Below are positions 4,967-8,136 of a DNA stretch of 11,063 bases, one piece after another. The stretch comes from Candidatus Mcinerneyibacteriota bacterium (GTDB lineage: Bacteria > Macinerneyibacteriota > Macinerneyibacteria > Macinerneyibacteriales > DSCS01), in the NCBI GenBank assembly GCA_016937175.1, contig JAFGWL010000041.1, positions 1 to 11,063 of the forward strand, written 5' to 3'. Positions within the stretch are counted from its first letter, which is position 1; the number at the start of each line of letters is the position of its first letter. Position numbers and translations under genes: made by a program. The notes under the pieces were generated by a model that saw nothing but the letters and a program-made list of their open reading frames with translations, ran no database searches and had not been told where the DNA came from.

Positions 4967-5006
4967 GAATATAAGAACAATCGGAGAGGACTTTTGTTTC
5001 AGAAAA

Positions 5007-5013
5007 AAGGAGG
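5007..5013 (+). promoter_or_regulatory. Strong ribosome binding site that fixes the lipoprotein start
   Basis: AAGGAGG ends 4 nt before the ATG at 5018. An in-frame TTG at 4994 would give an 8-residue longer protein but would place this site inside the coding sequence. The shorter form also gives a clean lipoprotein signal peptide beginning MKKQ, so 5018 is preferred. Confidence 0.75.
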
Positions 5014-5017
5014 AAAA

Positions 5018-6043
5018 ATGAAAAAACAATGTAAAATTCTGTCTCTTGCCGTCCTGACGGTTTTTTTGCTTTTTTTTACAGCCTGCAAGACAGGGGATCA
5101 TGTCCGGGGACACCTTGTGGAAGTCAAACGGATCACCCTGGAAGGGGGAGGCGAGTTCAACCGCTTGTACAGCTGGGAAGGGGGGTATGCCGGCCTGGAC
5201 TGGACGGATGCCTCGCTGCGGATCTTTACAAGAGACGGCCGATTGCTGGACCGGTATAGCAAAGAGGGAAGCGGCCCCGGGGAATACAACAAGAACCGCG
5301 TTCAGCTCATGGGCGTGGACAAAAACCGCATCTATCTGGCTGCTCTTGATAAGAGTGCTGTTTTGGCCTTTGAAGTGAAATCAGGTAAAATCCTTTTCAG
5401 GGACGAATACCCTGTGAATGAAGGAAGCCTTCGTGGAGGAGCTGTCGATCCCGATGGCCATATCTGGCTTGCTCTCCAGGGGGGTGCCTATGACGTGGCA
5501 GAACTCTCTCCGGAGGGCGAGATGATCAAGGGTTATCTTCCCGCTGAAGAAAAAGAGAGGGCTATGAGTCCGGAAAAGCTCATCAAATCCATGAAATGGA
5601 TCGCTTTCAGGGGAAATAAAGCGGTGTTCATCTCTTTTATGACCTATGAGCTCCACTTTTACTCCCGGGACGAGAAGGGGCTTCACCTGATTACAGAAAT
5701 GATACCCTGTCCCGTCTATGTGGAAAATAATTATGAGATCAAGACAAGCGGCAACAGCATCAGCATGACGGGCCGGCCCGGGATCAACGGGTATGCGGTC
5801 TCAGGCGAGACTCTTTTTATCAAATTACTCACAGACTCCGAAAACACAGAAGAAGAAAAAAACCAGGTCCACGCCTTCTCCCTGGATGGGGAAGACCAGG
5901 GGCTCTTTGAGTGTCGCCTGGAAGGAGGAGAGACCGTGAGCACTTTAGCCGGCGTCTCTCCGGAAGGCCATGTCCTGGCCTTCTTCGACAAGGAAGGCGA
6001 CAAAGGCGAGACCGTTCTGTGTGAATTACAGGTGCAGAAATAA
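5018..6043 (+). CDS. 6-bladed beta-propeller lipoprotein
   Basis: A 341-residue secreted lipoprotein of unknown function. Residues 1-22 form a basic then very hydrophobic signal peptide ending FFTAC, with C23 as the likely lipidated cysteine. The Phe at -3 is slightly off the usual lipobox but tolerated in some phyla. The mature part has repeated blade-like strands: VDPDGHIWLA near 143-152, SPEGEMI near 164-170, VSPEGHVLAFF near 313-323. It also has the hallmark SKEGSGPGEYN at 81-91, which in the 6-bladed beta-propeller family (Bacteroides and Acidobacteria-type proteins) sits between early blades. It would be anchored to the inner or outer membrane and probably binds a protein or ligand; no catalytic residues are recognisable. 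The 124-nt gap separates it from the AddB-like gene and the ferredoxin promoter follows it, so it may be monocistronic or a trailing gene. The propeller fold is inferred from motifs only. Confidence 0.75.
   Translation: MKKQCKILSLAVLTVFLLFFTACKTGDHVRGHLVEVKRITLEGGGEFNRLYSWEGGYAGLDWTDASLRIFTRDGRLLDRYSKEGSGPGEYNKNRVQLMGVDKNRIYLAALDKSAVLAFEVKSGKILFRDEYPVNEGSLRGGAVDPDGHIWLALQGGAYDVAELSPEGEMIKGYLPAEEKERAMSPEKLIKSMKWIAFRGNKAVFISFMTYELHFYSRDEKGLHLITEMIPCPVYVENNYEIKTSGNSISMTGRPGINGYAVSGETLFIKLLTDSENTEEEKNQVHAFSLDGEDQGLFECRLEGGETVSTLAGVSPEGHVLAFFDKEGDKGETVLCELQVQK
5048..5077 (+). terminator. Terminator-like hairpin plus T tracts inside the signal-peptide codons
   Basis: CCGT (5049-5052) and ACGG (5057-5060) form a small stem with a CCTG loop, with a possible extra C-G and G-U pair. 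T7 (5061-5067) follows directly, then GC and T8 (5070-5077). It starts 30 nt after the lipoprotein ATG. The stem is short for an intrinsic terminator and the T runs also encode Phe/Leu of the signal peptide, so this may be coincidental. Confidence 0.25.
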
Positions 6044-6070
6044 AATAGCATAAAAGCACTAACATTTATA

Positions 6071-6099
6071 TTGACACCCTCCTGGAACGTGATTATAAT
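6071..6099 (+). promoter_or_regulatory. Consensus sigma70-type promoter for the ferredoxin operon
   Basis: TTGACA (6071-6076) and TATAAT (6094-6099) are both perfect consensus, with a 17-nt spacer and AT-rich sequence just upstream. Transcription would start near 6105-6107, giving a leader of about 30 nt before the ATG at 6136. Such a strong promoter with a palindrome on its -10 box suggests control by repression. Confidence 0.85.
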
Positions 6100-6103
6100 C
6101 ACG
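6088..6103 (+). promoter_or_regulatory. Perfect 16-bp palindrome over the -10 box (likely operator)
   Basis: CGTGATTATAATCACG is identical to its reverse complement and contains the whole TATAAT box. Its core has the form GTGA-N6-TCAC, the half-site arrangement bound by many Crp/Fnr-family regulators, including HcpR of anaerobes. The usual outer T/A is C/G here. Position over the -10 box implies repression. Assignment to this regulator family is inference. Confidence 0.65.
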
Positions 6104-6104
6104 G

Positions 6105-6124
6105 AGGTTAGCAAGCATTAACCT
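6105..6124 (+). repeat. Leader hairpin before the ferredoxin start (hairpin 2)
   Basis: AGGTTA (6105-6110) and TAACCT (6119-6124) are reverse complements with an 8-nt loop, extendable by one G-U pair. The stem would lie at the very 5' end of the transcript from the promoter just upstream and ends directly before the ribosome binding site AAGGAGG (6125-6131). It shares CGGAGGTTA and AAGCAT(T)AACCT with the hairpin at 4942-4966. It could protect the 5' end or affect ribosome access. Confidence 0.45.
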
Positions 6125-6135
6125 AAGGAGGCGAT

Positions 6136-6957
6136 ATGAAGCGAAAGATCATTGCTATCGATAGAGAGAAGTGTAACGGATGCGGGCTCTGTCTTCCCGA
6201 GTGTCCTGAAGGAGCCCTCCAGATAATCGACGGGAAAGCCGTTCTTGTGAGTGACCTCTTTTGCGACGGGCTGGGCGCCTGCCTGGGCGAATGTCCGCAG
6301 GGAGCCCTTTTTGTCGAGGAGAGAGAAGCGGAGGCCTACAATGAAAAGAAGGTCCTTGAAGAGCAGATCATACCCAAAGGGGAGAATGTCATCAAGGCCC
6401 ATCTGAAACACCTTAAAGACCATGGCCAGGAGGAGTATTACAAAGAAGCTGTGGCTCTTCTCCGAAAAAAAGGGTTGGACGGGGACGTGGAAAAGGAGCA
6501 GAAGACACCCTCCTTTGTCTGTCCCGGGGTTCAGTCCCGCACCTTTCAGGCTTCAGGAGAAAAGGAAGAGAGTCCTGAAAGAGGCCGTTTATCACAACTC
6601 ACCCAGTGGCCTGTCCAGATGAAGCTGGTCAATCCCGATAACAATGACTTTGAGGGAGCCCATCTTTTGATCTCGGCCGATTGTGTCCCTTATGCCTTTG
6701 GTGATTTCCATAACCGTTTTCTTAAAGGAAGAAAGGTCATCACCTTCTGCCCGAAACTGGACGAAGGGATTGAAGAGTACGTGGATAAGCTCTCCCGGAT
6801 CTTTGCTCAGCATGATATCAAAAGCGTTACCGCGCTGAGAATGCAGGTGCCCTGCTGCTTCGGAACCATCCGGATCGTGGAAGAGGCCTTGAAGAGAGCG
6901 GGACGGGTCATGGCCATCCGGGAAGTTGTGATCGCCCCTGACGGGAGGATCCTGTAA
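6136..6957 (+). CDS. Two-cluster ferredoxin with cysteine-rich C-terminal domain
   Basis: A 273-residue cytoplasmic iron-sulfur protein, probably an electron carrier. The N-terminal 60 residues are a bacterial-type ferredoxin. The first cluster motif is canonical (C13, C16, C19, C23 then P24). The second has C43, C49 and C53 but Leu46 where a cysteine would stand (CDGLGACLGECP), so that cluster has three Cys ligands. A linker (60-150) with FVCPG (C129) leads to a conserved-looking domain: TQWPVQMKLVNP (156-167), SADCVPYAFGDFH (C183), TFCPKLDEG (C205) and VPCCFG (C240, C241). This N+C layout is known to me from uncharacterised 4Fe-4S proteins of anaerobes and methanogens. The start is set by AAGGAGG 4 nt upstream. 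The gene is driven by a consensus promoter with an operator-like palindrome and is followed after 9 nt by the NIF3-like gene. The electron partner cannot be named. Confidence 0.85.
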   Translation: MKRKIIAIDREKCNGCGLCLPECPEGALQIIDGKAVLVSDLFCDGLGACLGECPQGALFVEEREAEAYNEKKVLEEQIIPKGENVIKAHLKHLKDHGQEEYYKEAVALLRKKGLDGDVEKEQKTPSFVCPGVQSRTFQASGEKEESPERGRLSQLTQWPVQMKLVNPDNNDFEGAHLLISADCVPYAFGDFHNRFLKGRKVITFCPKLDEGIEEYVDKLSRIFAQHDIKSVTALRMQVPCCFGTIRIVEEALKRAGRVMAIREVVIAPDGRIL

Positions 6958-6966
6958 GGAGGGAAA

Positions 6967-7281
6967 ATGTACAGTATCACAGTCTTTGTCCCTGAAGAGC
7001 ACAGCGAACAGGTCAAAGAGGCGCTTTTCAGCGCGGGAGCAGGAAAACTCGGGGCTTACAAGAAGTGCGCCTGGCAGTGTTCCGGGGAGGGACAATTCAT
7101 GCCCCTGGAAGGAAGCTCCCCGGAGCGCGGGGAGTGGAACCGCCTGGAAAAGGTCCGTGAGACGATGATCGTCTGTTTCTGTTCCCGGGAGGCCCTGGCC
7201 GGGGCTGTCCGGGCCATGAAAGAGGCTCACCCCTACGAGACTCCGGCCTACTTTGTCTACGAACACGTCTCAGTTGAGTAA
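6967..7281 (+). CDS. Stand-alone NIF3/CutA-like small protein
   Basis: A 104-residue protein resembling the inserted or separate PII/CutA-like domain of NIF3 (YqfO-type) proteins. It starts YSITVFVPEEHSEQVKEAL, then GAGKLGAYKKCAW (25-36), GQFMPLEG (42-49) and a C-terminal AHPYETPAY (87-95), all typical of that family. The dinuclear metal-binding NIF3 core is absent, so this is the single-domain version, usually annotated NGG1p-interacting factor-like or divalent-cation-tolerance-like. It has three clustered-type cysteines (C34, C38, C70/C72). Function is unknown; a role in binding metals or small ligands, as in PII-fold relatives, is inference. The ribosome binding site AAGGAGGG overlaps the ferredoxin stop codon, so the two are co-translated and probably act together. 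Confidence 0.8.
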   Translation: MYSITVFVPEEHSEQVKEALFSAGAGKLGAYKKCAWQCSGEGQFMPLEGSSPERGEWNRLEKVRETMIVCFCSREALAGAVRAMKEAHPYETPAYFVYEHVSVE

Positions 7282-7344: not shown

Positions 7345-8136
7345 ATGAGGCTCTTTTTAAATGTCCTTCGACTGAATGAAGAGATCGCCAGGTCCCTTGC
7401 CGGGAGGAGTATGGGAGTGGAAGTCTCTGCTTTTTCGGACCCCGGCCTTCTGGAGGATCCTCTGCGGGCCGAGGAGGAAGTTGAAAGACTCCGTTCTCTC
7501 ATCAAAGAGTTCAGTCTTCCAGTGCGTTTTCACGGCCCCTTTTATGACCTCTATCCGGCCAGCCGGGATCCTTCTATTCAGCGGGCTGTCGAGGCCCGCC
7601 TTAAGCAGGGGATCATCCTGGCTCGCAGAATAGGAGCTTCTTCCATGGTGGTTCATCCCCATTACATCTATCCCGGCGATAAAGAAGATGTGCGTAAAAG
7701 CTGGACAGAGAGATGCGCCGGCCTTTTGGGGCTGCTTATCCCTCTCATGGAAGAAAACAAAGTCGATATCCAGCTGGAAAATGTCCGTGAACCCCGGCCG
7801 GACTATTTGACCGGCCTGGTGGAGGAATTGGCCCATCCCGGATTCGGGATCTGTCTGGACACCGGGCATGTCCATCTCTTTGGGGCTGACCGCTCCCAGG
7901 AGTATTGGCTGGATAAGACGTCTCCTTTCCTGCGTGCCGTCCATCTTAACGGGAATCATGGCCTTGAAGATGAACATCTCGCTTTTACCAAAGGCGATTT
8001 GGAGTGGGGAGCCTTTTTTTCGAAGATCAGGGAACTTCATCACTCCTGTGAACTTGTTATTGAAGTGATGCGGGAAGAGGATTATAGTGAATCTGTTCAC
8101 GCACTGGCGAAAATGGGAATAAGAGGCGAAATATAA
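7345..8136 (+). CDS. TIM-barrel protein of the AP-endonuclease-2/sugar isomerase superfamily
   Basis: A 263-residue soluble protein of the xylose isomerase-like TIM-barrel superfamily (Pfam AP_endonuc_2), usually annotated sugar phosphate isomerase/epimerase. Metal ligands can be placed along the barrel: H63 (RFHGPF), H104 (VVHPHY), E145 (QLENV), D172 and H175 (CLDTGHVH), H200 (AVHLNGN), D209 and H211 (EDEHL), E240 (VIEVM). Their order and spacing match the nine ligands of endonuclease IV, including the D-x-H pair. DxH is, however, also common in the sugar isomerase branch, and the protein is slightly shorter than endonuclease IV (about 280). Residues 213-224 (AFTKGDLEWGAF) correspond to the conserved LGEG-type loop. 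The start has GGGAG 6 nt upstream, and there is no signal peptide. It is the first gene after its promoter and lies 23 nt before prc. Substrate is unknown; sugar isomerase or DNA-repair roles both fit. Confidence 0.82.
   Translation: MRLFLNVLRLNEEIARSLAGRSMGVEVSAFSDPGLLEDPLRAEEEVERLRSLIKEFSLPVRFHGPFYDLYPASRDPSIQRAVEARLKQGIILARRIGASSMVVHPHYIYPGDKEDVRKSWTERCAGLLGLLIPLMEENKVDIQLENVREPRPDYLTGLVEELAHPGFGICLDTGHVHLFGADRSQEYWLDKTSPFLRAVHLNGNHGLEDEHLAFTKGDLEWGAFFSKIRELHHSCELVIEVMREEDYSESVHALAKMGIRGEI

Follow-up and report, generated by a model that had tools for sequence, protein, structure and literature searches.

Which element of the promoter of a FrdX-like ferredoxin gene is its regulatory site, and what kind of protein would bind there? 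The window, that is the whole stretch of 11,063 nucleotides that was analysed, contains a strong promoter whose -10 box lies within a perfect palindrome. A preliminary description had taken this palindrome for the operator of a Crp/Fnr-family regulator such as HcpR, relieved under redox or nitrosative stress. The features needed for the argument are given below, with L050 denoting the ferredoxin ortholog of the same genus (protein 75% identical to that of the window) and L051 the locus of Ca. Mcinerneyibacterium aminivorans.

6059 to 6070, forward strand: CTAACATTTATA, the stretch immediately 5' of the -35 box, identical in L050
6071 to 6076, forward strand: -35 box TTGACA, read directly, kept in L050
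6088 to 6103, no strand assigned: palindrome CGTGATTATAATCACG over the -10 box, unique in the genome, lost in L050 and most likely incidental
6094 to 6099, forward strand: -10 box TATAAT, read directly, TATACT at equal spacing in L050
6105 to 6124, no strand assigned: AGGTTAGCAAGCATTAACCT, an operator-like inverted repeat with the arms GTTAGC/ATTAAC, conserved in L050 and L051
6125 to 6131, forward strand: ribosome-binding site AAGGAGG, read directly
6136 to 6957, forward strand: gene of a 4Fe-4S dicluster ferredoxin-domain protein of 273 aa, FrdX-like (Pfam Fer4; orthologs near hcp)

Direct reading of the promoter gives TTGACA, a 17-bp spacer and TATAAT and confirms the 16-bp perfect palindrome over an all-consensus promoter (TTGACA-N17-TATAAT, CGTGATTATAATCACG) that had been described before. 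Related loci also support the earlier view that this promoter drives a ferredoxin-domain gene of the hcp-adjacent kind, since many of 80 related ferredoxin loci have hcp nearby, mostly directly downstream. Within the window the palindrome is the sole perfect gapless one of at least 16 bp, where base composition predicts 0.17 for a stretch of this length and about 28 for the genome. Around a given TATAAT, such a palindrome would arise with a probability of about 2e-4, a figure raised in part by ATTATAAT, which is palindromic in its own right. A pattern search for further copies, proposed as a check in the preliminary description, returned the 16-mer as a single copy in the 1.88-Mb genome. GTGA-N6-TCAC gave 38 matches, where a random 8-base pattern would give about 29; being near chance frequency, it is no recognisable genome-wide site.

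Two genomes of the genus (G000, the source, and G001) and one more of its order (G002) were compared. In the alignment, the L050 promoter retains TTGACA, the 17-bp spacing and a -10 box TATACT, and its palindrome columns read TGTCAGTATACTCTTT, in which 4 of the 8 symmetric pairs are left; outside the -10 box, 4 of 10 bases match those of the window. Neither G000 nor G001 has the palindrome in its cupin-hcp promoter, and GTGA-N6-TCAC occurs up to 250 bp upstream in one of the 80 related ferredoxin loci, an archaeal one. Missing conservation upstream of orthologs together with missing copies near promoters was what the preliminary description had named as speaking against its own interpretation, and both were found. 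Based on these comparisons, the palindrome over the ferredoxin promoter is probably a coincidence.

Beyond the promoter, two open reading frames separate the ferredoxin gene of the window from that of a Prc/Tsp-like protease: one of 104 aa at 6967-7281 with neither a Pfam nor an NCBIfam match, and one at 7345-8136 whose product, a TIM-barrel protein, has a below-cut-off resemblance to CbiR. The protease gene of L050 comes straight after that of the ferredoxin. Upstream of the ferredoxin, one beta-propeller lipoprotein-like open reading frame was seen in the window (4994-6043); L050 has two tandem copies of such a gene 5' of the ferredoxin (765-2913).

That the palindrome over the -10 box is an operator of an HcpR-like repressor or activator of the Crp/Fnr family is very improbable. 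Its inner half-sites fit the consensus wTGTGAnnnnnnTCACAw given for Desulfovibrio HcpR in PMC1274295, the target gene is FrdX-like, and the genome encodes a Crp-sized cNMP-binding protein. However, the outer bases are C/G and lack the outer T/A of the HcpR motif, and the loss in L050, the single genome copy with none at the hcp promoter, and the chance-like frequency of GTGA-N6-TCAC all speak against such an operator. In addition, HTH_Crp (PF13545) was found above the Pfam cut-off in no protein of the genome, compared with 14 of 14 control genomes that have one. Four cyclic-nucleotide-binding domains are encoded in the genome, and for the Crp-sized protein the Pfam search gave the cNMP domain alone and no DNA-binding HTH, though a very divergent HTH may still be present. 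The earlier assignment to Crp/Fnr or HcpR thus finds no support. At L130 (G000:C45:21619-21879), next to a GlmS-like and a CHASE2-like gene (named by eye), a protein of 215 aa is encoded that has a Crp-like cNMP-binding domain and no Pfam DNA-binding domain.

Rex sites of many bacteria include GTGA/TCAC, and a Rex protein above the NCBIfam cut-offs is encoded in the genome, which would be in favour of a site for this NADH/NAD+ sensor on the -10 box. In contrast to the TTGTGAA/TTCACAA arms of known Rex sites, the window arms are CGTGAT and not of the TTGTGA type, and the palindrome is lost in L050 although the promoter there is the same. We regard a Rex site at this position as extremely improbable. 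Both candidates, Crp/Fnr including HcpR on the one hand and Rex on the other, are set aside as regulators of the palindrome on account of its non-conservation and the missing copies.

The inverted repeat AGGTTAGCAAGCATTAACCT starts two bases beyond the end of the palindrome and sits between the -10 box and the ribosome-binding site, over the expected start site. Aligned with it, L050 carries AGGTTAGCAGACATTAACCC, with both arms retained, the middle altered and AAGGAGG next. In Ca. Mcinerneyibacterium aminivorans a perfect palindrome, GAGGTTAGTAATTACTAACCTC, precedes the ferredoxin gene. An exact match to AGGTTA-N8-TAACCT occurs once in G000, at the window site, and once in G002, ahead of its ferredoxin gene, and G001 has two one-mismatch matches, at the ferredoxin and at an ArsP-like permease. 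With two mismatches, fewer matches than for the reversed control were obtained, so that loose matches (e.g. G000 C6:149936 and C2:6519) are weightless alone. Judged from sequence, the conserved element of the ferredoxin promoter is the AGGTTA-N8-TAACCT repeat, which is linked to a TetR-family gene.

On the reverse strand, G000:C6:149936 and G001:C14:3141 share an identical ATGTTATATAAAGCTAACAT, and the G000 copy lies 5' of a NuoE-like gene. This sequence may represent an additional weak site, or its conservation may be due to chance. The stretch CTAACATTTATA, with its identical copy in L050, contains a CTAAC half-site and is possibly an UP-like element or an extra half-site of this kind.

In both genomes of the genus, the half-sites GTTARY/RYTAAC are shared by four promoters, those of the ferredoxin, cupin-hcp, cupin-flavodiiron NO reductase and ArsP-like permease genes. 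The Hcp exceeds the NCBIfam cut-off for hydroxylamine reductase and the flavodiiron protein that for anaerobic nitric oxide reductase flavorubredoxin. An operator of an hcp regulon would be expected before hcp in the genus, and the search for GTTAGT-N8-ACTAAC bore this out: there is one exact match each in G000, G001 and G002, always before the hcp operon. In G001 it lies directly before cupin-hcp and in G002 before a tetR-ferredoxin-cupin-hcp-flavodiiron cluster. In G000 the match is found some 100 bases short of the end of contig C22, downstream of a TTGACA-N16-TATAAT promoter and ahead of the opening codons of a cupin gene; contig C71 starts inside that cupin and continues with hcp. Six bases are common to the two contig ends, and joining them gives a frame that agrees with the G001 cupin, so that the putative junction of the G000 site with cupin-hcp is based on a 6-base overlap and orthology. 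With hcp and the FrdX-like ferredoxin joined by a common site, the gene content of an HcpR-type regulon is found with the shared half-sites. The G001 cupin-hcp promoter (L169, reverse strand) also has a 12-bp palindrome, TCACAATTGTGA, between -35 and -10, which is missing from the G000 cupin-hcp promoter.

At the cupin-flavodiiron genes of G000 and G001, GGTTAGTAACAATTA, as read on the opposite strand, lies in the -35/-10 interval and has one good half only. For the ArsP-like permease genes of the two genomes the sites are GTTAACGAATACTAAC and GTTAACGTGCACTAAC, placed after the -10 box and ahead of the ribosome-binding site. These permease genes are L165 (G001:C17) and G000:C44:37414-37908; in G001 a CoA-disulfide-reductase-like flavoprotein (below the NCBIfam cut-off) is encoded downstream. 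Both N4 and N8 spacings occur among the sites. In the window the site has the N4 form in an imperfect version (GTTAGC/ATTAAC), and the N8 sites before hcp and tetR include a partial overlapping N4 arrangement.

Between G000 and G001, 47 of 48 arm bases at the four promoters are equal, compared with 11 of 20 central bases and, for the ferredoxin and hcp promoters, 15 of 33 bases of the -35/-10 spacer. The resulting Fisher p of about 1e-8 (47/48 for the arms vs 26/53 for central and spacer bases) is descriptive, since the arm pattern was picked after the sites had been seen. The unique genome-wide matches before hcp are the stronger test.

As the repeat at 6105-6124 lies within the transcribed leader and abuts AAGGAGG, it might work in RNA as a small 5'-leader hairpin beside the ribosome-binding site. 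This is hardly probable, since the flavodiiron promoter has the motif between -35 and -10, where it is untranscribed, and two spacings with fixed arm letters suit a DNA site.

Evidence for the family of the predicted DNA-binding protein comes from the gene order outside the genus. In L051 the order is tetR, operator, ferredoxin, cupin, hcp and flavodiiron protein, and the tetR-ferredoxin pair is also present in Cloacimonadota (L053, followed by cupin and hcp) and Lentisphaeria (L055). GTTAGT-N8-ACTAAC precedes tetR in L051, L053 and L055 (GTTAGTGAATGCTAACTAAC, GTTAGTGAATACTTACTAAC and GTTAGTGATATATAACTAAC, respectively), so in these three lineages a palindromic operator overlaps the promoter or start and stands beside tetR, as for autoregulation. 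Sites, positions, conservation, gene content and this tetR adjacency can all be read from the sequences themselves.

Homologs of the L051 TetR are encoded in G000 (G000:C37:36437-36997, 40% identical) and in G001 (39% identical). Among the G000 matches the C37 protein stands far ahead, with an E value of 1e-44 compared to 3.6e-6 for the next best; TetR_N (PF00440) is found above cut-off in four proteins. The model of the TetR shows an all-helical TetR fold with a mean pLDDT of 92 and TetR structural matches, resembling the KstR2, FadR and SlmA structures. A His residue is shared by all five TetR proteins of an alignment. In both G000 and G001 the gene is flanked by an undecaprenyl-phosphate transferase-like gene on its upstream side and a UvrD-like gene on its downstream side (named by eye); no operator was found beside it, and it adjoins none of the genus sites. 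By homology, we infer that this unlinked TetR would be the functional counterpart of the site-linked one.

The missing linkage in the genus, together with at least three further weak TetR matches in the genome, would also be in accordance with a true operator at 6105-6124 that is bound by another TetR paralog or some other repressor. This is unlikely, given that the C37 protein is by a wide margin the best match to the TetR whose gene directly adjoins this operator in Mcinerneyibacterium.

Taken from the genome comparisons, the most fitting explanation is a TetR-type repressor on sites of the 6105-6124 type that controls the ferredoxin, cupin-hcp, cupin-flavodiiron and ArsP-like permease units and is freed by stress, and we consider this quite likely. 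A TetR-family dimer, most likely the product of G000:C37:36437-36997, would bind GTTARY-N4-RYTAAC or GTTAGT-N8-ACTAAC just 3' of the -10 box of strong sigma-70 promoters or, in the case of the flavodiiron genes, in the spacer that separates -35 from -10, and would thereby block transcription of the four units. The ferredoxin, hcp and permease sites cover the expected transcription start and leader, the flavodiiron site lies between the promoter boxes, and both positions would fit repression by steric block. Since the targets include Hcp and the flavodiiron NO reductase, nitric oxide or a related stress would be a likely inducer; the release signal is probably nitric oxide, its product, or oxidative or redox stress. 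With release of the repressor, Hcp, its ferredoxin and the NO reductase would be made together. Binding, repression and signal are what we infer from these arrangements. The derepression under stress proposed in the preliminary description remains plausible with a repressor-type site common to hcp, whereas the site and the regulator family named there were wrong.

According to a survey (Rodionov et al. 2005, PMC1274295), hcp and frdX are controlled by HcpR through the motifs wTGTGAnnnnnnTCACAw, wyTTGACnnnnGTCAArw and GTAACnnnnGTTAC, and in other groups by NsrR, NorR, DNR and NarP. The NsrR, NorR, DNR and NnrR regulons described there include control of hcp or of the flavodiiron NO reductase (norV). 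The regulators in this survey are of Crp/Fnr, Rrf2, sigma-54 or two-component types, and the word TetR does not occur in it. The HcpR regulon resembles the present one in its targets, hcp and the associated ferredoxin frdX, and in a similar stress function. It differs in its operator and in its regulator, which is of the Crp/Fnr family and not, as predicted here, of the TetR family; the present site 3' of -10, which suggests repression, is a further difference. NsrR, NorR, DNR and NnrR likewise act on hcp or norV in other bacteria, but are an Rrf2-family repressor, a sigma-54 activator and FNR-like activators (PMC1274295).

By profile and fold, the closest solved TetR relatives are FadR/YsiA of Bacillus (3whb, 1vi0), KstR2 (4w97) and SlmA. 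They are 17-25% identical and have roles in fatty-acid or sterol metabolism or nucleoid occlusion, not in NO defence. A TetR regulator of hcp or flavodiiron genes was not evident in literature titles and abstracts, a weak piece of evidence given their partial journal coverage. On balance it appears somewhat probable that these sites belong to an undescribed class of nitrosative-stress regulators, in which a TetR repressor with the operator GTTAGT-N(4 or 8)-ACTAAC replaces HcpR/NsrR in at least three phylum-level lineages (Mcinerneyibacterium relatives, Cloacimonadota and Lentisphaeria). The class would cover hcp, its ferredoxin, the flavodiiron NO reductase and the ArsP-like permease.

As this locus illustrates, a palindrome may catch the eye and yet be incidental, with the conserved site beginning two bases on. 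With a 20-base site and a named gene, the outcome is directly testable in a laboratory host. Among the defences of anaerobes against nitric oxide, Hcp and flavodiiron proteins are central. If true, a TetR-type repressor would add a new family to the regulators of nitrosative stress, in poorly studied uncultured lineages.
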